Shown here: piece after piece, positions 5,327 through 62,403 of the stretch | Position numbering within the stretch: position 1 is the stretch's first letter | Layout: each line of letters begins with the position of its first letter | Source of the DNA: Sipunculus nudus | Taxonomy: Eukaryota; Annelida; Sipuncula; Golfingiida; Sipunculidae | Direction: 5' to 3' | Length of the DNA: 64,000 bases | NCBI GenBank assembly: GCA_026874595.1 | Contig: CM049318.1 | Coordinates: forward strand, 55,629,250-55,693,249 | The notes under the pieces: generated by a model | Databases searched by the model: none | What the model saw: only the letters and a program-made list of their open reading frames with translations | Told to the model about the DNA's origin: nothing | Position numbers and translations under genes: made by a program

Positions 5327-7508
5327 GTATCGCCAGACATAGTCTGGAGATACTATGGTTTAGGCACGGTTGCGCCGCCGCCGCCGCCGAGATTTCTTTT
5401 GGACACAATAACTCAAAAAATATTTCAAGGATCTTTTTCAAACTTGACACATTTATAGATATAGGTGAGAGGACGAAGCCTATTTAAAATGGGGTGATGA
5501 CCTCAACTAGGAGAGTGACCTTGACCTTGAATAGATCCATTTTTGGGGAAAATCACACAAATTCTTAAATATCTCAAGAAATCTTTCATTTTTTTACTAA
5601 AAAATCAAGTTGGACAAAGATATTGGATAGTGATGTCATGTACCGGAAACTGGTGGTGCCACCTAGTATCCTTTTTAGCCCTCAGCCCTTAGGCTGATGG
5701 GCTATTGTCGTCACCCAAGCTGTCCGTCCGTCCGTCCGGCGTCCGTTAACTTTTACCTTGTGAGCGGGATATCTTGAAAAGGATTCACCGTCAGAATTTT
5801 ATTTCCTCGGTAAAGATGTATATCGACAAAATCTCGGTCAAGTTCGAAGATGGGTGACCTTGACCCATTTTTCTACATTTTAGAGCTGATTATAGAAAAA
5901 CACTTAGATGCTTATTGCTCAGGAACCATTTGGTGGATTTTCACAAAACTTACTATGATTATTGGGACTGATAATCTGTACCTGCTAAACAAGTTTGGTG
6001 GCGCCACCTACAATTTCTGATTTTTAATGAATTTTTATCGGATTTTTCAACTTTGGGCTTGTGAGCGGGATATCTCTAAAAGGTTTCACCGTAGGAATTT
6101 TATTTTTTCGGTGAAGATGTATATTGACAAAATCTCGGTCAAGTTCGAAGATGGGTGACTTTGACCTGCTTTTCAAGGTCACAGAGCTGATTATAGAAAA
6201 AACATTTAGAAGCTTATTTCTCAGGAACCATTGGGTGGATTTTCACAAAACTTACTATGATCATAGGAACTGATGGTCTGTAACTGCTGCACAAATTTGG
6301 GGGCGCCACCTGCAATTTCTGATTTTTAATGAATTTTTCTTGGATTTTTCAATTGTGGCCTTTTTAGCAGGATATCTCTAAAAGGATTCACAATAGGAAT
6401 TTTATTTCTTTGGTGAAGATGCATATCAACAAAATCTCGGTCAAGTTCGAAGATGGTTGACCTTGACCTGCTTTTCAAGGTCACAGAGCTTACAATAGAA
6501 TAAAACTTAGAAGCTTATTTTCAGGAAGCATTTGATGGATTGTTATGAGTCATGGTACATACCTCTCCATTTTAAATTTATAACTGAGACATGTACAGAT
6601 ATACATCCATGTGAGAACAGATATTTAGTACTTTTCACTGTTACCACCTCTAAACACTGTTCTTTTGGCTGAGGGCTTTTGTCAGCTTCTGCTGATATTC
6701 TAGTCTTGTTTTTGTGCCGTTTAATACCCCCATCATTGCCACTTGACAGTACTTTTAGCATCACAAGTCAAAAACTGATTGACAGATTTCTTTAATATTA
6801 TGCATGTACATAGGTATGGGCTATGGGATGATGTATATTAAAATTGGGGTCATGACCTTTCCTTTGAGAGTGGCTTTGACCTTGAATATTACCATATATG
6901 GTGAAAATCACATAAAATCATGAATATCTTAAAAAGTGATGCATGGATTGGTCCAAAAATCAAGTTGACGGAAGATCTTGGATAGTTTTGTCTTTTGCAG
7001 AAGATAGGTGGCGCCACCTGTTGTCCTTTTCTTGTTTTTTGCGCCTTTGAATATCCCATCATTGCCACTTGACAGTATATACTGTGAGCATTATAAGTCA
7101 AACAGTAATGGACAGATTTCTTTCATGTTATGCATGTATATAGATATGGTTTATGGAATGAGGTATATTTAATTTAAAATTTAATTTTAAAATTTAATTT
7201 AATTTAATTTTTTTTAAAAAATTTAATTTTTTTTTTCAAATGTTGGATATTTTGGAATGCAGTTTATTTCTCAAACAAGTTACTCCAAACATACATATAC
7301 AACTCAATACATCATTAAATATATACTTCTATTTATACATAACCTTTTACATAACAATTGCCTTCACTTTAAATATTCCTATATTTTGTACAAATGTTTC
7401 TCACATTCATTGCTAAAATACAAATACATCACATTATATCAACAAAATATCACAAAACCTCATTTGTCTGGCGATACTATGGCACCAGCGGTGCCAAGAA
7501 ATGTCTAG
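5327..7508. mobile_element. Helentron-like non-autonomous element, family H1
   Basis: Starts with a stem-loop (GTATCgCCAGAC...GTCTGGaGATAC, 5327-5353), then TATGGTTT and a GCC triplet run. Near the other end the arm recurs inverted (GTCTGGCGATAC, about 7467-7478), followed by a second hairpin (TGGCACC...GGTGCCA) and a terminal CTAG at 7505-7508. Compared with the uninterrupted 90-bp repeat next door, the element sits between two T residues and little or nothing is duplicated. The terminal hairpin, asymmetric inverted repeat, subterminal 3' hairpin and T-T target match the described Helentron / Helitron2 non-autonomous type ('pearl'-like in bivalves). The interior has GGTGGCGCCACCT palindromes and no Rep/helicase coding. 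A second element (5676-6703) is nested inside. Confidence 0.75.
5676..6703. mobile_element. Helentron-like element, family H2, nested in H1
   Basis: Begins AGCCCTCAGCC with a hairpin partner GGCTGATGGGC (5677-5703), followed by a (TCCG)n run. The inverse GGCTGAGGGCT recurs at 6667-6677, then hairpin TCAGC-TTCT-GCTGA and TATTCTAG ending at 6703. The flanks CCTTTT and TCTTG rejoin to the CCTTTTCTTG of a neighbouring core repeat (about 7024), giving an empty site at a T run. The core consists of about 310-bp tandem repeats with GTGAGCGGGATATCTC and GGTGGCGCCACCTAC words. Sister copies lie at 31399-32343 and 61063-62009. Confidence 0.75.
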
Positions 7509-7588
7509 TTAATCAACATATTATTTATCTTAAATTGGAGGCCGTGCCCCGAACCCCTGCTTAGCCTAAAACCAAGGATGATATTTAA

Positions 7589-8047
7589 AGGTGCCCAATC
7601 ACCTATCTGACCTTAATAAACTAAAGGTAATCCCTTGGAGCTTTAATAAAAATAGGCCAGAAGACGTGGATATCACAACACAGGCTGCTTGTTTTGTTTA
7701 TATCAACGTGTTTACAATATGTGCAGGCCTGCCAAAATAATCAAATCAAATTCAACAAGGGCATCTGGCAACAAGTCAGATAAGCCAGAGCTTAGTAAGT
7801 AGCGTTTTGCAACAATTGATCTTTCTATCTCTGGATATATGCAACCTACAACTTCAGGGTACATGTTTTTTCCCATTTGTAAACATTGCTGTGTTTACAA
7901 ACAAGTTGTTGATAAACAAGTTCATATATCCTTGACGAAGGCATTATAAAATTTTTTCACAACCAGAATAACCCTCAGACGATTAATATATACACAGAAG
8001 AAGCCAGAAATCACATTGTTTTTCAAAAGGCAGATGAATGGGCACCT
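7589..8047. mobile_element. TTAA-flanked MITE
   Basis: The left end AGGTGCCCAATC and right end (GA)ATGGGCACCT form a short terminal inverted repeat, with TTAA directly outside both ends (7585-7588 and 8048-8051). The 459-bp interior is non-coding. TTAA duplication fits piggyBac or Kolobok superfamilies; the termini alone do not decide which. Confidence 0.6.
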
Positions 8048-8129
8048 TTAAGGAGAGGGAGGAAAAATCTGGGAAACAATATTTTATGCAACACCTCAAA
8101 AATGGATGACATTCTGTGAAATGTGTTAG

Positions 8130-8561: not shown

Positions 8562-8759
8562 AGATTCAGACAGTGTTAAAGATTGAAATATGGATATACC
8601 AGGGGCTTAGTCAATTATCCTGGTGTCAAGAAGGCTCAATGTACCATCCTTGGGGGTCTGTGGTGTGTGTTCTCCCCAGCTGGGTTGTTATAACGAGGAA
8701 CCTCTGAAAGGTGCACTCTTTTATGAGTAAAACATGTTGGGCACAGTCTCCCAATTATG

Positions 8760-13140: not shown

Positions 13141-13292
13141 ACTTGCATTGTACATATACATGGCACAAGTGTACTTGAAAAGTAATGGTCCAGCATGGAA
13201 GCATTATACCAGATGTATATCACATTGCACAGGTTTGCATTAGGCCAGTAGGCCTTGTTTCATAATTTTTTTCAAGCAATTTTATACTTTTT

Positions 13293-15041
13293 AGCTCAGC
13301 TGACTATAAGTCATCTGGGCTATAGTGATGGTCCTTTGTCGGTTGGCTGTCCATCTCTCCTTCCGTCTGTTAATCTGGCACATTTTGAAACCATTGAACC
13401 GAATTGGAAATTCAGCATACAGTTAGATGTCCCCTAAATCTCCTACCAAACCAAAAGTTGGGTCCATACAACTTTGTTTCCTCGAGATATCAAGGAAAAT
13501 CCTCAATTTTTCATTAAAACCCAATTTTTACATTTCAAGACTGCATAATGTCAAAACCACTGATCTGATATTGATAATATTTAATGTAACCATTCCTCAA
13601 TCTATTTCCTATGTACATACCAGAAATTGGGTCAGTATTGTGTAATTTCTTGAAGTTTTGCACCCAAAAATAATGCATTTTGTCAAATCTAAGGTAATGT
13701 ATTTACTCGCCTCATATGATAAATATTTAAACTAGAGAGCTTATTTCAAGCATATCAGTATATTGAACTTAGTTTTACTTGTAAACCAGAAATTAGATAA
13801 AAATTTTGTAAATTTTCAAAGTTATTAGCATAACTGAAAAATAAATACCTTAAATTTTGCCCAAATTTGACCATGACTCATTTTCCTCCTGTAAGCACTG
13901 TTGTGTAATTTTCACAACTTGTACACATACAGTTTTAATATTTTTATAATCTGAAATTTGAAACTAATTAATTAAAAACTTGAGATTTTATTCAAGTTTT
14001 AAAGCACCATGTCAAGTATTGTTTATGTCAAGCCAGTCCAGAACAATTGTATGCAGTGTGCTAGGCCTAGCCCTCAGCTCCCCAGGCTGTTATGTAATCC
14101 GTTCACTCCTGGCCAGCTCCCTCTTCTGGGTTACGGGTAACTGGGTCAGGCTGTCTGCAGTAACTACTACAGAGAGCCTTTCTCTCTCTCTCCCCTCCCC
14201 ACCTACCCCTTCAATACACAGGACTAATTAATAAGACAAATCTTATAATTTTAATGTTAAATAAATTCTTTTTGTTGAGACTTGGACAATTTTGATTTTT
14301 TAAAGAAAAAAATGTTCAGGAATTTAATTCTAATATTCAAATGTGATAAAATATAAGGATCTAATGTAAGTGCTAACTGACAAGATTTCAAGATTTAAGA
14401 AGATATAAATACTTTGTAGCATTTCATTCATATCTCTTAAAGTTTGCCGAGCCAGGGTGTGAATGACACTGTTTAACTTAGTTTTAAAATCAGGAATATT
14501 CGTCAAACTTTGTAGGATTAATTTTTAACTCATATGGCCATATATTATACTTTTGAAAACTTAATTACCTTCACACATTTTATTAATCAAATGTAACTTT
14601 TATATAACACTTACCATAAGCCCATTTTTTCCCTTGGTGCTTCACTAAATGGTTTTAGGCCAAAGGTTTCATTTATTACACAGTGCACATGCTTTAGCTC
14701 GTGTCCATTATTCTATAATTTTCAGAGTTTCATTTTAACAGGGCCATTTTCTCTAAGCTTTTCAAATGGTTATATACATGAAAAACCAAAAGAATTAAAA
14801 ATATTTTTCAGTTAAAAATATTTTCCAAATTTCAGCTGAGGGATGTGACCCATGGGTCCTTTGTTTTATACTTTGGCTCATATCCATTATTCTATAATTT
14901 ACAAGGTCCATTTTAACAGGGCCATTTCGTCTTAGATTTTCAAATGCTAATATATATATAAACCAAAAGAATTAAGTATATTTTGCTTTTGCTAACATTT
15001 TCCAAAAATTCAGCTGAGAGACGTGACCTATGTGTCCCTTG
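13293..15041. mobile_element. Helentron-like element, family H4, with duplicated 3' end
   Basis: The 5' hairpin AGCTCAGCTGACT-ATA-AGTCATCTGGGCT starts at 13293, followed by GGTCCTTTGTCGGT and a short pyrimidine run. The 3' end has the inverse arm (CAGCTGAG, 15011), a GACCYAT...GGTC-like hairpin and CTTG at 15038-15041 before a T run. An almost identical 3' end (CAGCTGAGGGATGTGACCCATGGGTC) lies at 14833-14863, about 177 bp upstream, so the terminal segment is present twice. Related copies are at 28027, 28297, 43782 and 59754. Confidence 0.65.
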
Positions 15042-16184
15042 TTTTCTGGTAAGTTTTTACTTTTCCATTAAATTCCAAGTTGCAGCACTGGTTTGTTTAT
15101 GTTTTCCAGATACCTTCTTTTTAGATAAAGATTTTTAAAAGATTGTATATGCCAATGGAAATAAACCCTGTGATCTCACATGATAGTGCTGGCATCTCGT
15201 GACAGTGAAATAAGTAAGAATTTGTAGATGGTGCCTGTAACATTATGGTAAACAAACAAGTTGAGGGAGTATTTAAGCCTCCAGGTGTTGATCCATATGG
15301 ATTTTCCTCATCTTCTTTCTTAGTTTGAATCAACCTTTAAAACAAGGGATAAAGATGGATGAATATTAATGTTAAAGTGTGTAATAAAAAACACTTAAAT
15401 AGTGTTGTATGTTGTACTCTATATACACAATTTATCTGTATTATGTTTCTGCAGTAGTGTTTGATATGATGTTTGATGCTTTTATACTGATACATTTTGA
15501 ATTGCATAAATGTCAGCAAACATAGATATGACAGATAAAGGTATTTAAATTAAATTTTAATAAACTTACAGTTATCAGTCTTCTCATTTAAATTCAATCC
15601 ATTTAAAATCCATTCTTAACTAAATATTTTATTTAGGATTATTCATGTGAAAATGCTACAAGTAGTGAAATCTTTGTTTAGCCAGTAAAGAACGAGTGCT
15701 TCCATTGACTGATATTTTCTGTATTTTTATACATTTTCCTATTTAAAATTTTCCAGTATTTAGACCATTATCTTCTATGTTTTCCTATAATTTTTTTCAT
15801 TGCCCAATCGTGTTTCTGATATAAATGTTTTTACTGAATGATTATTGTTATTTAGACCAATTATTATTGAACACATCGAGCTCTTGTGTTTAATTGCCCA
15901 GGTAAGTCTTGCTTGTAACGCCCCCTTTAAACTAATTGACCTTGACCTGCTGCTTTGAGAACTGATGGTTATGGTGAGTAGCTGAGTGAAACAGTTGTGC
16001 AGTGAAAACACACGTTTCCTTTATTATAAACTGAAAACTCTTAGAGACTCCTTAATTTTGTCTCAGGTGCTCATATAAATGGTATGTTCGCCTGGTGGGA
16101 GCCCTGCAGTAGTTTCCCTGGTGATCTTGTGGTATGCATTATTTTCCACAGTGGTTTGTACTGTGTAACTTATAGGTTATACAG
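15042..16184. other. Intronic stretch before the PRDM-like main exon
   Basis: No element ends or coding potential recognised. The acceptor that would open the main exon is TCTTTCAG ending at 16206. Confidence 0.4.
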
Positions 16185-18500
16185 ATGTGTGTCATTGGTC
16201 TTTCAGACACCATGATGGCTTTGGGGATGGACCTAGTGCCAGATGTTCTCTACCCAGCCCAGCTGTTCAGTCCCTCGTTTGTGCAAAAAGAGTCTTCTCA
16301 GCTTACAAATATTAAGTTTAATCTTCATCAGTCACTGGCAGAGAATGTCTCATTGCATCTCATGAATACGCTTTCACCTGGCATAAACAACAGCATTGAT
16401 ATTTTTGAATGTAAAGCAGTTACTGCTGTGTATATTTGTGATATAACGGTGCCAATACATAGAAGTTTAAAATCTATGAAACTCTTGCTCACAAGTAAGT
16501 GTGGCATTCAAGTGTTTTGTGCACTTACTCTAAAACTGTATATACAGGAATCTCAAACGGAATCGGGATATGGGTGTGCAAAGCAGATCATCAGGACATT
16601 TGAAGTATGCTGTTCTGCTAATGGCAGTACATGTCGTCAAAATGATTTGAAACCTGATTATCTAAAATTAGAAAGATCTGATACCCAATATTTACATGTG
16701 ACAGGCAGTACCCCTGGTCTGTCACTTCCAATAAATGTTGGTACAAAACTTGAGTCAGCTGATGATACATGTCACAGTACTTGTAGAATAGAAAAACCGT
16801 TGAGTAAAAATGTTGTTATAGAAACCTTTACAGGAGCTAAGGTCCCGTTAACCATAGGAAACAACTTAAAGGGTGAACTTGAGTCCCTTGAATGTCACAT
16901 TGGTGGTATCACAAGCAGTATCACCTCAGATCAGTCGGATGTTGGTGACATAAGATCATGGCTTGACTTAAAGCCATGTAGTGAGGACAATAGATCTACC
17001 CTGGAATCAAGTGAAACATGTGAAAATATGGTTCAGGCTAAAGCTTTTGACATAAATTCGTATGTCAAGATTGAAAAGTGTGAAGAGAAAGTCATAGCTA
17101 TCTCCTCAAGTGATAATGCTCTGAGAGATTGTGTTGAGACAACCCTTGCCAGTGATGAAAAGGTGGCTGAAGAAGCTGGGAACCAAGGTGCTGTCAGTGA
17201 ATACCAGTTACCTAACTCGCCACAAGACGAGTCAGATTTCTTCATTAGCTCAGAAGAAGGTGAGGAGGAAGAGGAGGAAGTGATAGTAAAAGAAAGAGCA
17301 AGGGGATTGCCACCGAGAAGGGCAGCCAGAGAAGCTACCAAGCTTGTCCGGAACAAATGGAGAACTATGTTTGAGGAGGATTCTGCAGCAGGTGAAACCA
17401 AAAAGAAGAAACTGAAACAACGTGAAGATGGTGAGTTCATGCCAGATGATGATTATGGTTCCAATAGTACTTCGAGTCCATCTGATATTAGTGAATATGA
17501 GGCATCTGAAGAGAACAAAGAAACACAATATGTAGTTCCAAAACATGGGAGGTGTTCAGAGTGCTTTTATCTTCATGCGGAACCATTGCAAGAAAATTCA
17601 TGTTTTATTTGCAATCCACTTCATATAATTCCGAATCCGGACCCTTCACTGAAAAGACATTCTAAGGAAGAGAGCTGTCCGGATCTGCCAAAGGGGCTTA
17701 CATATGTGAGATCAAGTGCAGATGGAAATTCAAAAACTGTGGTTGTTTCAAACAAACTCATTCTTAAAGGCACTCAGTTTGGGCCAGTTGTAGGATGTAC
17801 TGTACCATATAAGGAGCTAGATTGTACAGCCTGCAATGAGGAGTACTATTGGCCTTACTTTAATTTGGAGAGCAGGACAGCCACAGTAGTAGATACCAGT
17901 GATCTCTCCAAAAGTAACTGGTTCCATTTTCTGGGGGGCAGTAATACAGATGGCAATATGTTCCAGGTTCTGAAAGAAGATTCCATTTACCTAGTCGCAT
18001 GCATTGATATAGCAGCAAACCAAGAAATCACCATTAAGCCCTACAGCAAGATATTCAAAGACAATGTCAGAGCATTTTATACCAGCTACCAGGAATCGCT
18101 CAATAGACTTTATTGTCATTTGTGTAACATTCAGTACCACTGCAGGTTGAGCTTGTCAAGGCATCTGCTAGTATTTCACACCAAGAATAACAGGTTCAAA
18201 ACTTTAAATTGTGCCACCTGTGGTTTGCTCATATGTACTCGCCAACAATTTCAGGAACACAAAGTCAGACATGGTGGCAATGTCAACAAATGTGATTTGT
18301 GTGGAGCAAAATTTAGATCTCCTCAAACACTGGCTAAACACAAGACAATGCAGCATATGCCTGGGTGCAAGGACAAAAATCTTTGTGACCTGTGTGGTAA
18401 AACTTTTGCATCACGAGCCGGGGTGAATGCTCACAAAAGAAAAGTTCACCAAGATATTAAATATGCATGTCCAAAGTGTCCGAAAGTGTTCAATATCTGA
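16185..18500 (+). CDS. PRDM-like protein: PR/SET domain plus C2H2 zinc fingers
   Basis: An uninterrupted 771-codon frame. An N-terminal half without known domains leads to an acidic run (about residues 355-366, SSEEGEEEEEEV) and basic patches, then a CxxC pair (about 456-476, CSEC...CFIC), as found before the PR domain of several PRDM proteins. A PR/SET domain follows at about 500-620: LPKGL start, KGTQFGPVVG, NWFHFLGG and DIAANQEITIKPYS correspond to the usual LPxGL, GxxFGPYxG, NWMRY and GEELxVWY blocks. Four good C2H2 fingers follow (about 642-755, C-x2-C-x12-H-x3/4-H). A fifth is cut by TGA. PRDM proteins are nuclear transcription regulators, some with histone methyltransferase activity. 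The methionine at 16185 is only the frame's first ATG; the TCTTTCAG acceptor at 16206 suggests that coding begins at 16207 after splicing. The exact PRDM type is not assigned. Confidence 0.8.
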   Translation: MCVIGLSDTMMALGMDLVPDVLYPAQLFSPSFVQKESSQLTNIKFNLHQSLAENVSLHLMNTLSPGINNSIDIFECKAVTAVYICDITVPIHRSLKSMKLLLTSKCGIQVFCALTLKLYIQESQTESGYGCAKQIIRTFEVCCSANGSTCRQNDLKPDYLKLERSDTQYLHVTGSTPGLSLPINVGTKLESADDTCHSTCRIEKPLSKNVVIETFTGAKVPLTIGNNLKGELESLECHIGGITSSITSDQSDVGDIRSWLDLKPCSEDNRSTLESSETCENMVQAKAFDINSYVKIEKCEEKVIAISSSDNALRDCVETTLASDEKVAEEAGNQGAVSEYQLPNSPQDESDFFISSEEGEEEEEEVIVKERARGLPPRRAAREATKLVRNKWRTMFEEDSAAGETKKKKLKQREDGEFMPDDDYGSNSTSSPSDISEYEASEENKETQYVVPKHGRCSECFYLHAEPLQENSCFICNPLHIIPNPDPSLKRHSKEESCPDLPKGLTYVRSSADGNSKTVVVSNKLILKGTQFGPVVGCTVPYKELDCTACNEEYYWPYFNLESRTATVVDTSDLSKSNWFHFLGGSNTDGNMFQVLKEDSIYLVACIDIAANQEITIKPYSKIFKDNVRAFYTSYQESLNRLYCHLCNIQYHCRLSLSRHLLVFHTKNNRFKTLNCATCGLLICTRQQFQEHKVRHGGNVNKCDLCGAKFRSPQTLAKHKTMQHMPGCKDKNLCDLCGKTFASRAGVNAHKRKVHQDIKYACPKCPKVFNI

Positions 18501-18777
18501 CATCTGAATTACCACAATAAAGCATACTCTTTTACATGTGACCGCTGTGGTAAGCCTTTTGTTGACAAGACATCTAGACGTGCACATGCTGACACATTCT
18601 GGGAGAAAACCATTTAAATGTGTGGAATGTTCTCACGGATTTACAACAAAACAAAGTCTCCAGATCCATTACAAAAATAAACATGGGCACACAGGGGAAA
18701 GTATGCCTGAAATAAAGCGATTAGTTCCGTTAAAGGAGAACAACATTAATAAGAGAGAGATGGACTGATCCAAACAT
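18501..18777 (+). pseudogene. Continuation of the PRDM-like finger array beyond the stop
   Basis: Directly after the TGA the same frame resumes with finger-like coding (HLNYH, then FTCDRCGKPF). After about 18575 a one-base shift is needed to continue LDVHMLTHSGRKPFKC and a finger ending HYKNKH, closing at a TGA (18768). The fifth finger is also abnormal: one residue is missing between F and L, and a tyrosine stands where the last histidine should be. So the array is decayed here, or the assembly has errors. If the stop is real, the protein loses at least two or three fingers. Confidence 0.6.
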
Positions 18778-20471: not shown

Positions 20472-21515
20472 TCAGATTTGTTTTTGGTTTAACATTTTCC
20501 ATGCTTCTCTCATATCGTCGATGTTCTTTGTATGGCCTACAATAAAATTTTTACCTTCTCTTAAACGTTGCAAAGTATTTTCTGTAATACCGGAAAGAAA
20601 ACTACCACCGAGATTTACGAATGTCTTATCGAGCATTTCCACGAGGATGCCGGTCATGTATATATCATCCACGGGGTGAAGAGGTAAATGAAATGACGCT
20701 GTGTACATATCCGCGACCATGTCATACGTGTACGCAAATCCCATACCATGCATATACGGAGGGTTGTACGTTTTGTTGTACACCTCTTGGGTAACACACC
20801 ATCTGTGCCACGGAGTGCATCGTATTGGTTTTGATTTCTTGCGAACGGATCCCAGAATAAACCGTTTATTATGCCTCATGTCGTTGAATAGGATTCCTAA
20901 CAATGTCTTCATATCAACAATTGTATCATCATCAACTTTGATGACAAACCTTGCATTGTTGCACCAATGATGCATAAAATTCAAAGCCGTCAGACCTTTT
21001 CGGGCCAGATTCCTATATGCCTCAATGAAATCCCCAACGACAAGGTCTTGATTACGGTTCTGTTCCGATACGATTTCAGGACTTATGGTCCCTTCAGTGC
21101 CTTGTTTTCCTAGCACGAAAATCGTCCTCAGATGGTGCTTAGCAAATAAAGTTTCATTGCCATATGCCTGCCTGATAAACTCTCTTTGTAAAACATTCTC
21201 CGGTGAAGTATACACATAAAGGAGCGTGATTTGATCTTCAGAATTGGCAATACATTTAGATCTATTAAACATCAGCAGTTTCGGTTCACCATACTTATTG
21301 TACTCCGGAACGCCTGGCTCTATATAACCTGTACTTTTCAGCCGCCCTCCTCCCTTGGTAGCTTTCAGTTTATCGTCAGACTGTAATTTCTTGAGGTCGT
21401 TCTGCAAATCTGAAGTGTTAAATTGTCCAATGTAACTTGGAAGACAAACCAAAGCTAAACACCCAGTGATAAGCAGGAAGATCAGTAGTCGTCCCCTGAT
21501 TCTTGTTGGGATCAT
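20472..21515 (-). CDS. Beta-1,3-galactosyltransferase-like (GT31), intact copy
   Basis: A complete 347-aa single-exon frame. A type II signal anchor lies at residues 9-28 (LLIFLLITGCLALVCLPSYI) after a short basic tail, as in Golgi glycosyltransferases. The GT31 (Galactosyl_T) blocks appear in order: REFIRQAYGN (111-120), TIFVLG (131-136), VSEQNRNQDLVVGDFIEAY (149-167), the DxD motif VIKVDDDTIVD (191-201), PPYMHGMGFAYTYD (252-265) and PVDDIYMTG (281-289). The family transfers Gal or GlcNAc from UDP-sugar in beta-1,3 linkage onto glycans in the Golgi lumen, using a metal held by DDD; the exact donor and acceptor cannot be told from sequence. The length is normal for the family. A minus-strand ATTAAA about 95 nt past the stop (20372-20377) may be the poly(A) signal. 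The two downstream paralogues are broken, so this is the only intact copy here. Confidence 0.9.
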   Translation of the reverse strand: MIPTRIRGRLLIFLLITGCLALVCLPSYIGQFNTSDLQNDLKKLQSDDKLKATKGGGRLKSTGYIEPGVPEYNKYGEPKLLMFNRSKCIANSEDQITLLYVYTSPENVLQREFIRQAYGNETLFAKHHLRTIFVLGKQGTEGTISPEIVSEQNRNQDLVVGDFIEAYRNLARKGLTALNFMHHWCNNARFVIKVDDDTIVDMKTLLGILFNDMRHNKRFILGSVRKKSKPIRCTPWHRWCVTQEVYNKTYNPPYMHGMGFAYTYDMVADMYTASFHLPLHPVDDIYMTGILVEMLDKTFVNLGGSFLSGITENTLQRLREGKNFIVGHTKNIDDMREAWKMLNQKQI

Positions 21516-21676
21516 CGTGTTATCTGATGCAGTCGGCCTTCACCTCACAGCTCTGCTTTTACCAGCTTTATGTTTGCCGCATATTTAGTAGGTAACCTTA
21601 CAATGAGAAAAGTATATGTTAAGCAACTAGCAAGAATTTATGCAATTATACGCATAATGATCACGCACTGTTCCTT

Positions 21677-27576: not shown

Positions 27577-28296
27577 CTGCAAAATGAACTTATCAAAGAC
27601 AAGAACGGGGGCTTTTAATGAGTGCGTGTGAAGATGATTTTTCAATACCGTTCAGATTGGTACTAAAATCTATTCCAATATATTTTCAATTTAATTCAAA
27701 TTTACACCTGGCTTGCATAGCGGGGATTGTACTTTAAAACATAAAATAAATATAATGTTACAGAGTTCAAACCTTTCTGCATACATACAGTGTGATCCTT
27801 TCGTGCATCTGCTGTAATGATCATCAGCATGTTGTTTTCTGTAAAACGTCGGGATTTATGCGTGTCAATCGGGTGAGGAGGACGTTAGGGTTCCTTGCCA
27901 TACATGCAGGATGATGTTCGTGCAAATAGGTCGCTTTCATATGTGCGGGTCCCTCATGCGGATAATCAGTTATTTAATCCTTCAGTCACATTTTCTGATA
28001 ATTTGCAATTTAAGTTTATTAATTTTAGCTCAGCTGACTAGAAGTCATCTGAGCTGTAGTAATGGTCCATTGTCTGTCTTCCGTCTGTCCTGCTGTCCGT
28101 CGGTCCGTTAGAGTGGCACGTTTTGTAACCGTTAGACCTAAGAATCCAAAATTATGCATTCTTTTAGAGGTCCCAAACACTTCCTACCAAACCGAAAACC
28201 GGGTTACTGCGACTTCGTTCCTTTGAGAAATTAAGGAAAACCCTCAAATGTTCATTAAAATCTATTATCACACCACAGGACTGCCTTATATTCAAT

Positions 28297-30151
28297 GACT
28301 CAAGTCAGCTGAGCTATAGTCGTGGTCCGTCGTCCGTCCGTCTGTCCGTCCGTCCGTCCGTCCGTAGATGTGGCACGTTTTGAAACCGTAAGACCTAGGA
28401 ATCCAAAATTCAGCATAATGTTAGATGTCCCCAAGATCTCCTACCAAGCCGAAAACTGGGTCTGTGCGATTTCATTCCTTTGAGAAATTAAGGAAAAACC
28501 TCAATTTTTTATTAAAATCATATTTTCACACTTCAGGACTGCCTAATATCAAAACCACTCATCTGTTTTTCCTCATATTTACTATAAATATTCCTCTATA
28601 TAGTTCCTATGTACATGCCAGAAATTAAGTCTGTAAAGTATAAATTCTTTAAGTTATGGGCCCAAACATAATGGACTTTGTAAAAAATCAGGAAAAATTA
28701 ATAACTCACTTAACATGAAAAATTTTGAAACTAGAGTCTATTTTATCAAGTATATAACTATGTTTTATTAAGATACAATTGTTTTCTCAAAAAATTAGAT
28801 CTGAATTTTGTAAATTTTTAAAGTTATTAGCATAAAAAATCAGTACCTTAAATTTTGCCCAACTTTGACCATGGCACGTTTTTTCCCTGTAAGCACCATT
28901 GATTTAATTTTCACAGCATGTAATCATAAATATTTAGTTTGTCTAAATCTGAAATTTGAAAATAAAAGCTTGAAAATTAAGCTAGTTATTGATTTTTTTC
29001 TGTAGTCACGTGCTTTGATTACAGATGCAGGGTCCCACTCCAGGTCATTGGGAGTCAGCTATGCCAGGGTTTCTGATTTGTTACAGTCACTGGGGGAGAT
29101 CCCCTGCTGTGACAGGTGTACAGTTATTCTCATATCACCACCCCAATCACACAACACCCCCCCCCCCCCGCAAACCCAACCCACCAAGTGTTATGCAGTA
29201 ATTGTTATTGTTTTCACTGTATCTCCTTAATTGTAATGCTGTTTCCACTCCAATATGCACAAACATTCCTTGAAAAAATAATTCAAGGTGTAATCAAGAA
29301 GATGCAATGTTGTGTAATGTAGCATTTTTGAAGAAATCAATTTTCTTTTAAATGATTTTAACAAATATAATTGAACCCATCAGTATGCTTAAATTATTAT
29401 AAAATATGAAGCACATTATGGATAAATAAAGACACAATTAAAAATTGTGAAATCTAAATCAAGTATTATTTTTAGATATTTATTGTTTTGCAGATTTAAA
29501 AGATAAATAAACATTTGTATGCATGATGTGGTGTTATCTGACAAGATTGAGATTTATGATGATGCAGTTGAGAATTATGAATCAACTTTTATATTCAGAT
29601 ATATATGTTAAATTGGAAATGTATAGAAATATAAACTTAAATTAGAAAATAATTGATGTGATAAAAAAAATGAGGATTTAATACAAACATTTGTTCATTA
29701 TTTTCCTGCCTCAGCAGAATTTGAGATCAGGCTTTGTTTGCCCCGTTTTATGTTGTTTATTAGCTCTATTTCAACTGTATACATATCATTAAAAAAATAC
29801 ATATATATTTAATAATATATATTATACAAAAAAATAGATCCAATTGAACAAATGTGTAAACTACTGAAATGTCTACAGTAAATCGAAAAACCAACTAATG
29901 ATCATGGTAATAGTACAGATCATTTGTTCACAAACTGCTCACATGCTTTAGTTTTAACATTAGGAAACACATGGTCAGGTCACAAAATATTTTTTGCAAC
30001 AATTTCTTGCTCATCAATACAAACCAATCATATTAACCAACCATGGCCTTTATTACCTCTTCCTCTTACACTTTATCTCCATTTGATATTATTTTCGATT
30101 TTTACCTTCCAGGTTAACGTCAGCTGAGCACAGTGACCCATAGGTCCCTTG
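28297..30151. mobile_element. Second H4 copy nested in the first, unit 1 only
   Basis: Starts near 28297 with the inner part of the 5' hairpin (GACT-CA-AGTCAGCTGAGCT), so the outermost left bases are missing. (GTCC)n follows. Ends GTCAGCTGAGCACAGTGACCCATAGGTCC and CTTG (30148-30151). Units 2 and 3 show the same flank uninterrupted (…CAAATGATTTTTCTTAATATTATCC at about 44046 and 60023), i.e. an empty site at a T run. A C10-12 run lies at about 29155-29169. Confidence 0.65.
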
Positions 30152-30591: not shown

Positions 30592-32739
30592 ATGCCCCCG
30601 CCACTAAGTGGCCGGGGCATATAGTTTTACCCATGTCCGTCCTTCCGTCATTCCGAAATAAAACAGTTGTACGGACTTTTTTCGCAATGCCTGCAGATAT
30701 TGGCTTGATTTTTGGTGTGTGGACAGATAATGACCAGTTACAGATCGAGTTCGTGTTTCGTCCCGGTTACCCTACTTTTGACTGTTTTACGGCTCCTAAA
30801 CTTAGAAAATTTCATGGAAAAAAAAAATTTCTATGACAAATACACATGAACGGACTTTTTCGCAATGCCTGCAGATTTTGGCCTGATTTTTGGTGTGTGG
30901 GCAGATAATAACCAGTTACAGATCGAGTTTGCGCCTCGTTCCGGTTGACCTACTTTTGACCGTTTTACGGCTCCTAAACTTAAAAAATATCATGAAAAAT
31001 AGAAATTTTCATGACAAATACACATGTACGGACTTTTTTTCGCAATGCTTGCAGATATTGGCCTGATTTTGTGTGTGTAGGAAGATAACGACCAGATATA
31101 GTTCGAGTTCGCGTTTCGTCACCATTGATCTACTTTTGACCATTTAACGGCTCCTTAACTTTGAAAATTTCATGAAAAATAGAAATTTTCATTACAAATA
31201 CACATGTACGGACTTTTTTTCGCAATGCCTGCAGATATTGGCCTGTTTTTTGGTGTGTTGGCAGATAAAGACCAGATACAGATCGAGTTCGCGTTTCGTC
31301 ACCATTGACCTACTTTTCATTGTTTTACGGCTCCTAAACATAGAAAATTTCATGAAAAATATAAATTTCCATGACAAATGAAAATGTACAGCCGTTTTAA
31401 ACCCTCAGCTCATAAGCTGATGGGCAATTGTCGTCATCCAAGCTGTCCGTCTGTCTTGCCGTCAGTCTGTCCATCCGTCTGTCTGTCCGTCTGACATCCA
31501 TCCGTCCGCGTCTATTAACTTTTACCTTGTGAACAGGATTTCTCTATAAGGTTTCACTGTTGGAATTTTATTTCATCAGTGAAGATGTATATTGATAAAA
31601 TCTCAGTCAAGTTCGAAGATGGGTGATCTTGACCCATTTTTCTACATTTTAGAGCTGATTATAGAAAAACACTCAGAAGCTTATATCTCAGGAACCATTG
31701 TGTGGATTTTCACAAAACTTACTATGATCATTGGGACTGATGGTCTGTACGTGCTGCACAATTTTGGTGGCGCCACCTGCAATTTCTAATTTTTTCATCA
31801 ATTTTTATCGGATTTTTCAATTTTGGCTTTGTGAGCGGGATATCTCTAAAAGGATTCACCATTGGAATTTTATTTCATCAGTGAAGATGTATATCAACAA
31901 AATTTTGGTCAAGTGCAAAGATGGGTGACCTTGACCTATTTTTCTTTGTTTTAGAGCTGATTTTTGTGTGTGGATTTTCACAAAACTTACTATGATCATT
32001 TGGAATCATGGTCTGTGCGTGCTGCACAATTTAGGTGGCACCACCTACAATTTCTGATTATTTAATGAATTTTTATAAGAATTTTCAATTTTGGCCTGTT
32101 GTGCAGGATATCTCCAAAAGTATTCAACACAGGAACTACAGTGCCAATGCATGACATTTACAAAATTTTGGTCAAGTTCAAAGGTGGGTGATCTTGACCT
32201 ACTTTTCAAGGTCACAGAACTTGGTATAGAAAAAAACTTAGGAGCTTATTTCTCAGGAAGCATTTGGTGGATTGTTATGAAACATGATACATACCTCTCC
32301 AATTAAATTTATAACTGATTATCAGCTTTTGCTAATATTCTAGTTTTGCAATGCAATGCTTACAGATACCAGCCTAATGTTTGGTCTGTTGGCACATAAT
32401 GACCACTTACAGATCTGATAATTTAGTTCGCGTTTCGTCCCAGTTGACTTATTTTTGACCATATGACAGATCCAGAACATAGAAATTTCATGAAAGACAG
32501 AAATTTTTTTTATGAAAATGCACGTATCGACTTTTTTTTCACAATGCCTGAGAGATACTGGCCTGATTTTTTGTGTGTTGCTTGATAATGACCCGTTACA
32601 GATCTAGTTTGCATTTTGCCCTTGTTGACCTACTTTTGACCATATGACACCTCCTGAACTTAAAATTTTTTTACAAAATTTAACAAATGTTTCTAATTTG
32701 CCCCAGGCGAGGGCATTCGTGTCGTTCCGACACATCTAG
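30592..32739. mobile_element. Helentron-like element, family H3 (unit 1)
   Basis: Starts ATGCCCCCGCCAC with hairpin partner GTGGCCGGGGCAT, followed by ATAGTTTTACCC. The core is about 178-bp tandem repeats (TGTACGGACTTTTTTCGC, GCCTGCAGATATTGGCC, TTGACCTACTTTTGACC) starting about 30669, 30849, 31026 and 31206. The inverse arm GGCGAGGGCATT is near 32706, then hairpin GTGTCG-TTC-CGACAC, AT and CTAG (32736-32739). Unit 2 has the site empty at 46072-46086 (a T run). An H2 element is nested at 31399-32343. Confidence 0.75.
31399..32343. mobile_element. H2 element nested in H3 (unit 1)
   Basis: Begins AAACCCTCAGCTCATAAGCTG and a (GTCC/GTCT)n run; the core has GTGAGCGGGATATCTC and GGTGGCGCCACCTGC; ends GCTAATATTCTAG. 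It interrupts an H3 core repeat between GTACAGCCGTTTT and TTGCAATGC. The ends are more worn than in the copy at 5676-6703. The same nested arrangement is in unit 3, so the nesting predates that duplication or exchange. Confidence 0.7.
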
Positions 32740-38198: not shown

Positions 38199-38206
38199 CG
38201 TGTTAT

Positions 38207-44134: not shown

Positions 44135-45718
44135 GTATCCGCCAAAACTTGCGGATACTATGTTTTTGACCGGGTTCCGCCGCCGCCGCCGCGTTCGTTT
44201 CCGGAGAACTCCTCTGAGACTACTGGACAGATTTTTCCGAAACTTACACAAATTATCGGGTCACATGTGAACTGGTGCCTAACCAAGTGACCTTGACCTC
44301 TGACCTTTCGTCTCTGCCCAGCGTCCGTTTGTGCGTCTGTTTCCACACATAAACCCATATATCTCGGGAACCGTTTGACCGATCCGGAAAAAAATTTTAC
44401 ACAAATGTAGCCCTGGGAAAGCTTTATAACATACACAACAAAAGGTGGCGCCACCTGCAACCATGTTTGAACAGTGTCCATCTTTTCATCTGCCTGGGGT
44501 TAAAATCACTCATATCTCTGCAGTGATTTGACTAATTCACCTAAAATTCGGCATGCATATACATCCTAGATAGCTTTCTCGATTTTGTGACAGGTGGCGC
44601 CACCTACATTCACGTTAACGCTCCACACATAATCCCATATATCTCGGGAACCATTTGACCGATCCGGAAAATTTTTTTACACAAATGTAGCCCTGGGATA
44701 GCTTTATAACATACACAACAAAAGGTGGCGCCACCTGCAACCATGTTTGCACAGTGTCCATCTGTTCATCTGCCTGGGGTTATATCACTCATATCTCTGC
44801 AGTGGTTTGACTAATTCACCTAAAATTCGGCATGCATATACATCCTAGATAGCTTTCTCGATTTTGTGACAGGTGGCGCCACCTACATTCACGTTAACGC
44901 TCCACACATAATCCCATATATCTCGGGAACCGTTTGACCGATCCGGAAAAAAAATTTACACAAATGTAGCCCTGGGATAGCTTTATAACATACACAACAA
45001 AAGGTGGCGCCACCTGCAACCATGTTTGCACAGTGTCCATTTGTTCATCTGCCTGGGGTTAAAATCACTCATATCTCTGCAGTGGTTTGACTAATTCACT
45101 TAAAAATCAGCATGCATATACATCCTAGATAGCTTTCTTGATTTAATGACAGGTGGCGCCACCTACATTCACGTTAACACTCCACACATAAATCCATATA
45201 TCTCAGGAACCGTTTGACCGATCCGGAAAAATTTTTTACACAAATGTAGCCCTGGGATAGCTTTATAACATACACAACAAAAGGTGGCGCCACCTGCAAC
45301 CATGTTTGCACAGTGTCCATTTGTTAATCTGCCTGGGGTTAAAATCACTCATATCTCTGCAGTGGTTTGACTAATTCACCTAAAATTCGGCATGTGTATA
45401 CATCCTAGATAGCTTTCTTGATTTTATGACAGGTGGCGCCACCTAAATTCAAGTTTATGCTGCAGACATCCAAGCTCATATCTCGGGAACCGTTTGACCA
45501 ATCAGGAAAAAAATTTTACACAAATGTAGCCCTTGGATAGTTTCTCGTTCAAATAACAGGTGGCGCCACCTACAATCATGTTTATGTGGCAGAGATCCAT
45601 TCTAATATTTAACACGTAACTCTATATCCCCTTGCCACTCAATCAATGCCTTACTTCACCCGTCCTTCTCTGATTTTGGCGGATACACGTAGTCGCTTGT
45701 CGACTACCCGTATTCTAG
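44135..45718. mobile_element. H1 Helentron-like element carrying a 280-bp satellite (unit 2 only)
   Basis: Starts with hairpin GTATCCGC-CAAAACT-TGCGGATAC, then TATGTTTTTGACC and GCC triplets. The 3' end carries the inverse arm TTTTGGCGGATAC (45674-45686), hairpin GTAGTCG-CTTGT-CGACTAC and TATTCTAG ending at 45718. The target GTGTAAT/TTCTTG is intact at the matching place in unit 3 (60099) and unit 1 (30209), showing an insertion at T-T. The core is four copies of about 280 bp starting at CCACACATAA (44343, 44623, 44902, 45182) plus a partial fifth. Confidence 0.8.
44343..45600. repeat. 280-bp satellite with two GGTGGCGCCACC palindromes per unit
   Basis: Each unit has TCTCGGGAACCGTTTGACCG, then AAAGGTGGCGCCACCTGC, then TCATATCTCTGCAGTG, then GACAGGTGGCGCCACCTAC. 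Perfect palindromes start near 44443, 44591, 44723, 44871, 45002, 45151, 45282, 45431 and 45558, alternately about 148 and 132 bp apart. The two half-units share only the palindrome and its flanks, a dimeric organisation. Confidence 0.9.
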
Positions 45719-46639
45719 TTTCTTGAAGTTATGGGCCAAAATATAATGAATTTTGTAAAAAATCAGGAAAGATATTTACTCACTTAACATGATATTTATT
45801 GAAGCTATAAACGTATATACAGACTTTGCTTTCCGGTATATAACTTTGTGTAATCATGATTCAATTGTATACCCAAAATTAGATATGGATTTTGTAATTT
45901 TCAAGTTATTAGCATAAAAATGAGATCAGTACCTTTAATTTTTCCCAATTGGGATCAGGTCACTTTTTTTACTGTAAGTACTGTTGATTTAATTTCCACA
46001 GTATATAAACATAAGTATTTATTCTATTTAAATCTGCAATTTGATAATAAAAGCTTAAAAATAGGCTAGTTTTTATTTTTTTTTAAAGGGTCATATTGTA
46101 TTAACTTGCCTTGTCCAGATTCTGGCAGGCCACTGGAGGTCAGCTTTGCCAGGGAACCTGTTATGTAATGGGTCACTGGGGAGATCCCCTGCTGTAACGG
46201 GTGTACAGATGTTCTCATATCAACCCCCCCACCCCCATGGAAATGAAAAGGAAATAAAACTTTGTTTGTCCTGTATGTATATGCAGAGGTGTTGTTATTG
46301 CCACCATTCCCCCTCCCCTGCCATTGAGTCTATATTGAAAATGTGTAAAATTTATTAAATTAAAAAACAAAATAGCATTAGAAAAACATCATGATTTAAT
46401 TTAAACATATTCGTGTCTCAGGAAAATGGGACAAAAAGTGATCAGCTCTGTCATTCTAGGCCCAAAGATAAGGAGAAATTCAGAGGAGACCTGGATGAAA
46501 AACTAAGGTCTGAAAATAGATAAGGTCTATAAATACTTAACTGGGTATGAGGTAAGATCAAGGTGACTTGAAAAGACTACTTGCTTAGTGGATGTGATAT
46601 TTTTGGCTATAGAGCGGGTACATTGTTTATTAAGGTGTG

Positions 46640-51272: not shown

Positions 51273-52305
51273 TTAGCTTTGTTTTCGGTTCAACATTTTC
51301 CATGCTTCTCTCATGTCGTCGATGTTTTTTGTATGGCCTACAAAGAACTTTCTGTCTTCTCTTAAACGTTGCATGGTTTTTCCTTTGTGACCGGAAAGGA
51401 AACGACGACCCAGATTTACGAATGTCTTATTAAGATTTTCTACAAGGATGCCGGTCATAAACATATCATCCACAGGGTACAGTGGCACATGAAAAGACGC
51501 GGTGTACATATCCGCGACCATGTCATATGTGTACGCAAATCCTATACCGATCATGTATGGAGGAGTATACGTTTTGTTGTAAACCTCTTGGATTACACAC
51601 CATCTATGCCACGGAGTGCATCTCCTTGGTTTTCTTTTCCTGCCCACGGAACCAAAGAAGAACCGCTCTTTATGCTTCAAGTCGCTGAATAGGGTTCCTA
51701 ACAATTTCCTCATATCAAAAATTGCATCATCATCAGCTTTGATGACAAACCTGGCATTTTTGCACCAGTGATGCATAAAATTCAAGGCCGTCAGACCTTT
51801 TCGGGCCAGATTTCTGTATGCTTCAATAAAATCCCCAATGATTACGGTTCTGTTCCGATACGATTTTAGGACTTATGGTCCCTTCTGTGCCTTGTTTTCC
51901 TAGCACGAAAATCGTCCTCAGATGGTGCTTAGCAAATAAAGTTTCATTGCCATACGCCTGCCTGATAAATTCTCTTTGTACCACATTGTCTGGTGAAGTA
52001 TATACGTAAAGGAGCGTGATTTGCTCTCCAGAATTAGCAATACATTTAGATCTGTTAAACATCAGCAGTTTTGGTTCGCCATACTTATTGTACTCTGGAA
52101 GGCCAGGCTCTATGTAACCAGTACTTTTTATCCTTCCTCCTTTCTTCGTAGCTTTCAATTTGTTGTTAGTCTGTAAGTTCTTGAGGTTTTTCAGCAAATC
52201 TGAAGTGTTAAATTGTCCAATGTAACTTAGAAGACAAACCAAAGCTAAACACCCAGTGATAAGCAGGAAGATAAGTAGTGGTCCCCTGATTCTTGTTGGG
52301 ATCAT
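51273..52305 (-). pseudogene. Beta-1,3-galactosyltransferase-like, unit 3 copy, 11-nt deletion
   Basis: 1033 nt against 1044 in the intact copy. The first 155 codons encode the signal anchor and VVQREFIRQAYGN. Then 11 bases present in units 1 and 2 (ACAAGGTCTTG) are missing at about 51840, in a context of short TGA repeats, and the frame runs to a stop. The C-terminal part (KADDDAIFD, PPYMIGIGFAYTYD, PVDDMFMTG) is open in another frame from 51785. The N-terminal stem is the most diverged of the three copies (LLKNLKNLQTNNKLKATKK). The upstream region with the CT repeat is retained. Confidence 0.85.
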
Positions 52306-52467
52306 CGTGTTTTCTGATGCAGTCGGCCTTCACCTCACAGCTCTGCTTTTACCAGCTTATGTTTGCCGCATATTTAATAGGTAACCTTACAATGAGAAAA
52401 GTTTATGTTAAGCAACTAGCAAGAATTTAAACAATTATACGCATAATGATCACGCACTGTTCCTTTG

Positions 52468-59753: not shown

Positions 59754-60464
59754 AGCTCAGCTGACTAGAAGTCATCTGAGCTGTAGTAATGGTCCATTGT
59801 CTGTCTTCCGTTTGTCGTGCTGTTTGATGGTCCGTTAGACTGGCACGTTTTGTAACCGTTAGACCTAAGAATTACAAAATTAGGCATTCTTTTAGAGGTC
59901 CCCAACATCTTCTACCAAACCGAAAACCGGGTTACTGCGACTTCGTTCCTTTGAGAAATCAAGGAAAACCCTCAAATTTTCATTAAAATTTATTATCACA
60001 CCACAGGACTGCCTTATATCAAATGATTTTTTCTTAATATTATCCTACATATCTCCTACATATTTCCTTTATTCTTGCCAGACAGTAAGACCGTATTGTG
60101 TAATTTCTTGAAGTTATGGGCCAAAACATGATGGACTTTGTAACAAATCAGGAAAGATATTTACTCACTTAACATGATATTTATTGAAGCTATAAACGTA
60201 TATACAGACTTTGCTTTCCGGTATATAACTTTGTGTAATCAGGATTCAATTGTATACCCAAAATTAGATATGGATTTAGTAATTTTCAAATTATTAGCAT
60301 AAAAATGAGATCAGTACCTTTTTTCCCAATTGTGACCAGGGCACGTTTTTTTCCCTGTAAGTACTATTGATTTAATTTCCACAGTATGTAAACGTAAGTA
60401 TTTAATCTATTTAAATCTGCAATTTGATAATAAAAGCTTAAAAAAAGGCTAGTTTTTATTTTTA

Positions 60465-62403
60465 ATGCCCCCGCCACAAAGTGGCCGGGGGATATAGTTT
60501 TACCCATGACCGTCCTTCCTTTTTTTCGCAATGCCTGCAGATAATGGCCTGATTTTTGGTGTGTGGGCAGATAATGACCAGTTACAGATCGAGTTCGCGC
60601 TTCGTTCCGGTTGACCTACTTTTGACCGTTTTACGGCTCCTAAACTTAAAAAATTTCATGAAAATAGAAATTTTCATGACAAATACACATGTGCGGACTT
60701 TTTTCGCAAAGCCTGCAGAAATTGGCCTGATTTTTTTGGTGTAGGTAGATAATGACCAGATATAGATCGAGTTTGCGTTTCGTCACCATTGACCTACTTT
60801 TGACCATTTAACGGCTCCTTAACTTAGAAAATTTCATGAAAAATAGAAATTTTCATGACAAATACACATGTACGGACTTTTTTCGCAATGCCTGCAGATA
60901 TTGGCCTGATTTTTGGTGTGTTGGCAGATAATGACCAGGTACAGATCAAGTTCGCGTTTCGTCACCATTGACCTACTTTTCATTGTTTTACGGCTCCTAA
61001 ACATAGAAAATTTCATGAAAAATATAAATTTCCATGACAAATGAAAATGTACAGCCGTTTTAAGCCCTCAGCTCATAGGCTGATGGGCTATTGTCGTCAT
61101 CCAAGCTGTCCGTCTGTCCGTCTGTCTTGCCGTCAGTCTGTCCGTCCGTCTGTCTGTCCGTCTGACATCCATCCGTCCGCGTCTATTAATTTTTACCTTG
61201 TGAGCAGGATTTCTCTAAAACGTTTCACGGTTGGAATTTTATTTAATCAGTGAAGATGTATATTGATAAAATCTCAGTCAAGTTCGAAGATGGGTGACCT
61301 TGACCCATTTTTCTACATTTTAGAGCTGATTATAGAAAAACACTCAGAAGCTTATATCTCAGGAACCATTGTGTGGATTTTCACAAAACTTACTATGATC
61401 ATTGGGACTGATGGTCTGTACGTGCTGCACAACTTTGGTGGCGCCACCTGCAATTTCTAATTTTTTAATCAATTTTTATCGGATTTTTCAATTTTAGCCT
61501 TGTGAGCGGGATATCTCTAAAAGGATTCACCATTGGAATTTTATTTCATCAGTGAAGATGTATATCAACAAAATTTTGGTCAAGTGCAAAGATGGGTGAC
61601 CTTGACCTATTTTTCTTTGTTTTAGAGCTGATTTTTTGTGTGGATTTTCACAAAACTTACTTTGATCATTTGGAATGATGGTCTGTGCATGCTGCACAAT
61701 TTAGGTGGCACCACCTACAATTTCAGATTTTTTAATGAATTTTTATAAGAATTTTCAATTTTGACCTGTTGTGCAGGATATCTCCAAAAGTATTCAACAC
61801 AGGAACTACAGTGCCAATGCATGACATTTACAAAATTTTGGTCAAGTTCAAAGCTGGGTGATCTTGACCTACTTTTCAAGGTCACAGAACTTGGTATAGA
61901 AAAAAAGGAGCTTATTTCTCAGGAAGCATTTGGTGGATTGTTATGGAACATGGTACATACCTCTCTAATTAAATTTATAACTGATTATTAGCTTTTGCTA
62001 ATATTCTAGTTTTGCAATGCAATGCTCACAGATACCAGCCTAATGTTTGGTCTGTTGGCGCATAATGACCACTTACAGATCTGATCATTTAGTTCGCGTT
62101 TCGTCCCAGTTGACTTATTTTTGACCATATAACAGATCCGGAACATAGAAATTTCATGAAAGACAGAAATTTTTATGAAAATGCACGTATGGACTTTTTT
62201 TTCACAATGCCTGAGAGATACTAGCCTGATTTTTTGTGTGTTGCTTGATAATGACCCGTTACAGATCGAGTTTGCATTTTGCCCTTGTTGACCTACTTTT
62301 GACCATATGACACCTCCTGAACTTAAAATTTTTTTTACAAAATTTAACAAATGTTTCTAATTTGCCCCAGGCGGGGGCATTCGTGTCGTTCCGACACATA
62401 TAG
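60465..62403. mobile_element. H3 element, unit 3
   Basis: Starts AATGCCCCCGCCAC. The inverse arm GGCGGGGGCATT (about 62370) is a perfect match to the start. Then hairpin GTGTCG-TTC-CGACAC and ATATAG, the usual CTAG changed by one base. The core has one 178-bp unit fewer than unit 1. An H2 element is nested at 61063-62009. Confidence 0.75.
61063..62009. mobile_element. H2 element nested in H3, unit 3
   Basis: Begins AAGCCCTCAGCTCATAGGCTG and a (GTCC/GTCT)n run; ends GCTAATATTCTAG (62006-62009). At the same H3 position as in unit 1. Confidence 0.7.

Follow-up and report, generated by a model that had tools for sequence, protein, structure and literature searches.

In a stretch of 64,000 nucleotides on contig 13 of the 1.43-Gb genome of Sipunculus nudus (hereafter the window), we identify the dispersed repeats as HINEs, non-autonomous Helentron derivatives that form real families. 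For two of them, families B and D, both ends recur at loci where a Rep hit adjoins coding sequence for a helicase and an endonuclease, which supports the Helentron/Helitron2 assignment proposed in an earlier, sequence-only reading of this DNA. What the families have in common with Helentron coding loci is both ends (B and D), the core repeats (B) and an endonuclease fragment (element D1). They very probably arose from Helentrons through deletion and move with the help of a Rep/helicase/endonuclease acting in trans, which recognises their ends. The sequence-only reading was confirmed in part as an observation and supported in part as an interpretation.

That reading had described six unrelated families, H1 to H6, without coordinates, and their mapping onto elements was made in this analysis. 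Elements were read from the sequence and their ends matched by a mismatch scan. H1 and A have GATACTATG, a GCC tract and a TNATT flank in common and look related, so that there are at most five arm types (H1, A, B, C and D) rather than six unrelated families. The window contains segmental copies of ~16 kb in tandem; B1/B2 and C2/C3 are therefore each present twice, and empty sites can be read inside the window. The elements are the following.

5327..7508, + strand: H1 element with C1 nested inside; 12-bp arms that are exact inverses, an empty site, and a copy with different flanks in locus L002
5327..5353, + strand: H1 5' hairpin of 5 outer pairs, a G.A mismatch, 6 inner pairs and a triloop (DNA fold -9.1 kcal/mol, z -6.6)
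5374..5388, + strand: H1 (GCC)5 microsatellite
7466..7508, + strand: H1 3' end with arm 7466-7477, palindrome 7480-7496 and CTAG 7505-7508 (arm match, fold)
5677..6703, + strand: C1 nested in H1, with hairpin, GTCC tract 5722-5737, 302-bp core, 3' arm 6667-6677, palindrome and CTAG
28026..30151, + strand: D1, with hairpin 28027-28055 (C.T mismatch), interrupted GTCY tract, 3' arm 30119-30129 and CTTG 30148-30151
29882..30004, + strand: remnant in D1 of a Helentron endonuclease C-terminus (116 bp at 82% DNA identity with the coding end at C7:70980080)
30592..32739, + strand: B1 with C2 nested; arms matching at 10/11; the sister segmental copy lacks the element at 46081/46082
30668..31379, + strand: B1 core of ~180-bp tandem repeats; the repeat also lies inside the 5' end of the B locus on contig C5
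31400..32343, + strand: C2 in B1, without 3' arm (arm test); its left flank recurs in genome copies
44135..45718, + strand: A, with hairpin 44135-44158, (GCC)4 44179-44190 and 280-bp core 44342-45583; empty sites near 30220 and 60105
A 3' end, + strand: arm 45674-45686, palindrome 45689-45707, CTAG 45715-45718
60465..62403, + strand: B2 with C3 nested (61063-62009); arms matching at 11/11, copy of B1 in the segmental duplicate
46060..46095, + strand: paralogous empty site of B
13290, 23739, 39510, 43779, 55559 and 59751: further D-type 5' ends in the window (mismatch scan)

As had been proposed, each family opens with a 5' stem-loop of its own. Treated as single-stranded DNA, the stem-loops of H1, A, B1, C1 and D1 fold better than 200/200 shuffles (z -6.6, -6.3, -5.3, -4.7 and -4.8, respectively). 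The microsatellite just inside the hairpin and the tandem-repeat cores were likewise recovered: the former is GCC in H1 and A, GTCC/GTCT in C, an interrupted GTCY in D1 and GTCC/TTCC-like in B1, and the latter have units of 302, 180 and 280 bp. The inverted 5' arm expected close to the 3' end is present in H1, A, B1, B2, C1 and D1, where it sits 22-32 bp before the 3' end of these window elements and is thus subterminal. It is the exact inverse of the 5' arm in H1 (12/12), A (13/13), D1 (11/11), B2 (11/11) and C1, and matches at 10/11 in B1. None of 500 shuffled arms matched as well, with 1/500 for B1. For the A element the end used in this test was taken 7 bp short of the listed 45718, a coordinate read from the sequence. 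In C2 and C3 a 3' arm was looked for and not found, the best match having 4/10 mismatches, the same as shuffled arms. A small second hairpin at the 3' end was found in H1, A, B1 and C1 (z -2.8 to -3.7) and has decayed in D1 (z -1.6, with 11/200 shuffles as good). The 3' fragment of an autonomous D element, clipped by one base, folds no better than shuffles; the sequence itself is palindromic. The terminal CTAG or CTTG abutting a T holds for A and B copies, with T after CTAG at +1 in 100/100 and at +2 in 98/100 for A, and in 99/100 and 92/100 for B, among the matches listed; B2 ends in ATAG instead. In most intact copies the 5' and 3' arms match exactly.

One D-type element (13290-15045) has two successive 3' ends and a 178-bp tandem repeat (14692-15045). 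Both ends possess an arm, a palindrome and a CTTTG/CTTG terminus, as if termination had been passed once.

The sequence-only reading had called for autonomous Rep/helicase partners sharing the arms, and a Rep/helicase/AP endonuclease partner sharing ends was found for B and D only. Of 195 candidates 150 were scored, giving 143 matches to Helitron_like_N (Pfam), seven of them in open frames of more than 2,200 amino acids (aa). The open frame at C17:35630192 is 2342 aa long, matches Rep and contains, in its C-terminal part, PIF1 and an endonuclease domain, the latter just under the Pfam cut-off. A 3-kb query across the 3' side of this locus retrieved 40 scored places, itself included. Six of the 39 others extend past query position 2000, and all six end at 2022-2029; in the query, 2023 is the last base of the D 3' end, made up of arm, palindrome and CTTG (2020-2023), and the flanks of the copies differ. 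A seventh place, C5:68166154, ends at query 1698, where a D-type end sits (L060). On the 5' side, the match between the copies on contigs C17 and C10 opens a single base ahead of the T-run in the D 5' arm and continues into GTCC/GTCT repeats. The D coding element is ~15 kb long, including an A element at the same spot in both copies, and autonomous D copies (L045 and L046, reverse strand) show a second D 5' end 0.7-1.1 kb inside. When 36 downstream stretches were scanned at thresholds of 7 and 8 mismatches, a D-type 3' end lay on the coding strand in 10/36 and on the other strand in 0/36; with these thresholds the weakest D ends (L072 and L084) are uncertain.

The endonuclease remnant in D1 can be followed in frame past 30004, with 59% aa identity over 68 residues (the E-value comes from a tiny database), and is weakly similar to the endonuclease end of a further lineage, X (38% over 26). 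No such remnant was seen in the other D-type elements tested. Searching the window by tblastn with the D and X proteins gave no match, and the D1 remnant surfaced only with a nearer lineage.

The A element was also considered as a terminus of the D Helentron and rejected. It occupies an identical place inside two D copies and lies inside the endonuclease frame of L089, and A is therefore an insert. The frame in L089 belongs to a D-like Helentron; its endonuclease coding end contains the A 3' end and has an H1 5' end close by. The D-type 3' palindrome varies with compensation, TGACCC/GGGTCA alternating with TGGCCC/GGGCCA (L058, L060, L071, L073 and L076).

The B-end locus at C5:20308942 spans ~12 kb and has both B ends and the ~180-bp core repeats. 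An exact B 3' end follows ~340 bp after its endonuclease frame and recurs at C3:41770464; the two loci are 99% identical over 409 bp and diverge at the B 3' end. The coding part (20309326-20312899) matches PIF1 and Exo_endo_phos. About 8 kb upstream of the Rep hit lie the B 5' hairpin, a TCCGTCAT tract and ~181-bp repeats, which are 86-89% identical to the window B core over ~0.9 kb and 79-81% beyond. Exact B 3'-end motifs were sought in the 5.5 kb read at the 5' side of this locus and none was found. The coding locus of B also possesses the satellite-like core, placed directly behind its 5' end, so there is no need to suppose that the short derivative acquired this core by capture. Among the 36 downstream stretches the B 3' end was found in 2 and a C end in none.

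Lineage X (contigs C8, C14 and C2) encodes a helicase, an endonuclease and an OTU domain, and terminates downstream of the frame in the reversed 5' hairpin of a further family, E. The D and X proteins are 28-30% identical in long aligned stretches (41% in one stretch of length 71), and B is 27-46% identical to D and X. Family E itself (L053, L054, L055 and L070) has a hairpin beginning GCTTGCCGGAATC and a GTCTGTTTG tract, and is reversed relative to the frame of the X Helentron. Another family, F (L066 reverse strand, tract at 1972), shows a hairpin of GTCCCCCGC and GCGGGGGAC followed by GTCTGT repeats.

Genome copies were counted as exact patterns on both strands with the reversed patterns as control. 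Families A, B, C and D gave 1,400 to 25,821 places per pattern against 0-12 for the controls: 6,273 for the D 3' end and 25,821 for the D hairpin, 1,400 for the B 3' end, 2,801 for the A 3' end and 1,949 for the C 5' end (control 0 in each case), and 8,843 for the 13-base A arm with both ends pooled (control 12). Hairpin patterns are self-complementary, so the same places are listed on both strands. Flanks were tallied from 100 matches listed per pattern (B 3' end, A arm, A 3' end and C 5' end). Five more copies of C have the same ends and differing flanks (L004-L008). Among the C 5' ends listed, 50/100 have a TCA loop, as inside B; 29/50 of these share one identical 9-base left flank and most others are near it, while in the other 50 the commonest flank was seen 5 times. 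The lost 3' arm together with the shared left flank indicates that the C inside B multiplied as cargo of B. H1 carries C in the same setting at both other H1 loci read (L002 and L003).

Empty sites allowed the insertion points to be compared. A is absent from two sister copies, near 30220 and 60105, and the empty site of H1 (5239-5270) lies where its left flank is repeated in tandem. At the B empty site (46081/46082) there is no target duplication; B1 fits an insertion into a T-run with nothing gained, and B2 has one T fewer in its run. Two T's are gained at A and H1, and this gain can be read either as an element ending T...T at TNAT^T or as a TT duplication, the same ambiguity having been described for DINE-1 (PMC2374699). 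From the 100 A-arm matches listed, 35 were set aside as reversed 3' ends. The remaining 65, some of which are possibly not true 5' ends, have T at positions -1 (65), -2 (57) and -5 (60) and A at -3 (58); for the 51 distinct flanks among them the numbers are, in this order, 51, 43, 46 and 44. In H1 (window, L002 and L089) T-A/C-A-T-T precedes the arm, and the 5' ends of C and D carry T-runs. The T-T target named by the sequence-only reading fits B, and A/H1 favour TNAT^T.

Several observations weigh against the derivation of these families from Helentrons. The frame of the B locus on contig C5 is broken at least twice and 3 kb of it (20306301-20309325) is unread. The remaining places retrieved by the D query end at or before query 1172, and that search does not show their 3' ends. 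D copies are so abundant that a single D end beside a gene means little, and the weight rests on shared boundaries rather than on single ends. A coding partner for A, H1 and C was not found, and the single A 3' end among the 36 downstream stretches lies inside a Helentron coding region. In 20/36 stretches (9/16 and 11/20) none of the ends sought by pattern was present, so that ends have been assigned for only part of the lineages. Taken as Helentron derivatives, the elements would move along the lines of established Helitron/HUH biology: Rep would nick at the 5' end, a rolling circle would peel off one strand, the 3' palindrome with CTAG/CTTG|T would mark termination, and the strand would be joined to a T-containing target. 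We propose that each lineage reads its own arm sequence, which the 5' end would present on a hairpin bearing a single defect in mid-stem and which would find its exact complement in the 3' arm. Nested elements (C in B and H1) would be copied as cargo.

For A and H1 a different enzyme has to be considered, namely a Helitron2-type Rep/helicase without endonuclease, in which case only the general plan would be common with B, C and D. The TNATT flank of the listed A 5' ends resembles the target of the Helitron2-like Fusarium elements FoHeli1/2, which insert between TNAT and T (PMC5148889), and no A or H1 end was seen bounding an endonuclease-bearing locus. Against this, A arms were found at no Helitron2-type locus, and the two strongest Rep hits have in-frame stops. 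We give this possibility somewhat less than an even chance.

The arms may specify which ends a given replicase uses. The argument is purely correlational: D, B and E are three arm sets borne by three Helentron lineages whose aligned protein stretches are 27-46% identical. A single promiscuous replicase that needs just a 5' hairpin and a 3' palindrome, with arms devoid of specificity, would explain why the plan is common and the sequence free. It is unlikely, as the lineages keep their own arms (the B 3' end at two loci, the D 3' end in seven copies, E at three loci) and no mixed-arm element was present among the window elements tested.

Miniature inverted-repeat (MITE-like) cut-and-paste or foldback repeats, moved by a terminal-inverted-repeat transposase with target duplication, would account for the inverted arms, and a 2-bp TT duplication is an alternative reading of the A/H1 empty sites. 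Yet the 3' arm lies 22-32 bp inside the end, the B empty site lacks a duplication and the B and D arms delimit Rep/helicase/endonuclease loci; the elements thus do not combine terminal inverted repeats with target duplication, and we regard this origin as highly improbable. Mere multiplication by segmental duplication, suggested by the ~16-kb tandem copies and by the duplicates B1/B2 and C2/C3, is refuted as a general account by the many dispersed copies with varied flanks and has a negligible probability.

The 5' arm had been described as always self-complementary. In seven families the pairing is interrupted once, by a mismatch or a 1-nt bulge. In its genome form the A hairpin has 8 outer pairs, a bulged C, 5 inner pairs and a triloop, and the window copy is shortened. 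B has 8 outer pairs, C.C, 5 inner pairs and a triloop; D 7-8 outer pairs, C.T, 5 inner pairs and a triloop; C 6 outer pairs, a bulged T on the 3' side, 6 inner pairs and a loop of 4; F (L066) 10 outer pairs, T.T, 2 inner pairs and a triloop. E has 9 outer pairs, G.T, 4 inner pairs and a triloop, with a bulged G in another copy; its G.T can pair weakly and is paired by the fold program. The 5' ends of the autonomous D (contig C10) and B (contig C5) elements fold like their families, and at the D end on contig C17 C.A replaces C.T.

Searches that left the defect free found 25,821 places for D, 3,039 for B and 5,553 for A. The first places on contig C1, tallied by eye, contained a repaired hairpin in 0/200 D, B and A copies among the matches listed. 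The 100 D copies had 97 C.T, 2 C.A and 1 C.C; the 50 B copies 42 C.C, 4 T.C, 2 C.T, 1 T.T and 1 A.C; and the 50 A copies 49 bulged C and 1 C.T. We also surveyed GTCY-like tracts in 357 kb made up of the window and fetched DNA for a hairpin lying upstream with 11 pairs or more, allowing 0-2 defects. Such a hairpin was found at 20/79 tracts, 18 with one defect, 2 with two and 0 without defect; 10/20 are C copies. Copies of one family are not independent, so the test spans about seven families, two pairs of which are perhaps related, and a one-defect rule across families is suggestive, not proven.

In IS200/IS605 elements the end hairpins are imperfect and an unpaired mid-stem base in the single-strand hairpin is a recognition feature; their transposase is unrelated and the likeness is an analogy only. 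It is conceivable, if rather doubtful, that the Helentron-type 5' end is a hairpin with one obligatory unpaired position retained during sequence turnover, as the shared layout of A, B and D (7-8 outer pairs, defect, 5 inner pairs, triloop) might suggest. The defect would stop the 5' arm from pairing locally and leave the 3' arm of the same family as its perfect partner, the arms would act as an address code that keeps co-resident Helentron lineages off each other's ends, and the GTCY-type tract would be part of the same origin. The one-defect rule is in no title or abstract found on bulged Helitron hairpins or on subTIR/Helentron mismatches.

The HINE plan has been published for DINE-1, mite, Culex and oyster Cg_HINE elements (PMC4067079, PMC2374699, PMC7492417), as have the GTCY tract, a reversed gene orientation and, in arthropods, partner Helentrons. 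With HINE/DINE-1 elements the families described here share subterminal inverted repeats (subTIRs), an inverted repeat (IR) beside the 5' subTIR, the GTCY microsatellite, central repeats, a 3' stem-loop and a T-rich target (PMC4067079, PMC2374699), and Helentron partners are already known for mite, Culex and Drosophila families. The arms differ, and the IR, complementary to the 5' subTIR as in HINEs, deviates from the arm here by a single mid-stem mismatch or bulge. The IR of DINE-1 is called partial and/or interrupted in PMC2374699, and a one-defect rule does not appear in the part of its text available. Cg_HINE elements of the Pacific oyster resemble ours in an 11-12 bp subTIR, an IR, a satellite-like core, a 3' palindrome and, in several, GTCY/GTCC/GTCK microsatellites (PMC7492417). 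Their authors could not relate them to 10 autonomous C. gigas elements, whereas here two families are tied to coding loci and the B core repeat is also present at a coding locus.

FoHeli1/2, Fusarium Helitron2 elements, have asymmetric inverted repeats, hairpins at both ends and multiple 5' termini (PMC5148889), and their TNAT^T target is a likeness restricted to A/H1. In contrast to them, the B, D and X (E-armed) loci possess an endonuclease domain, which departs from the Rep/helicase without endonuclease of Helitron2, and the ends are CTAG/CTTG, not ATTTT. Nor are these canonical Helitrons (Helitron1; 5' TC, 3' CTRR, A^T target): CTAG fits CTRR, there is no 5' TC, and the flank of A is TNATT. 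As far as the literature was searched, and within the available parts of the papers cited, what is new is coding relatives for two HINE families in this genome, the presence of the B core repeat at the B coding locus, a hairpin with one defect, and a HINE group flanked by TNAT^T. The one-defect hairpin and the A/H1 TNAT^T flank provide simple testable statements on end and target recognition by rolling-circle elements.

The window also contains other features. A galactosyltransferase-like gene lies on the - strand at 20475-21539, with PF01762 in this first copy, and similar frames occur in the other two ~16-kb segmental copies (37159-38207 and 51276-52329, - strand). A 774-aa open frame at 16176-18765 (+ strand) combines a PR/SET domain with weak C2H2 zinc-finger matches and is PRDM-like. 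At 33398-33659 there is an exact 130-bp tandem duplication.

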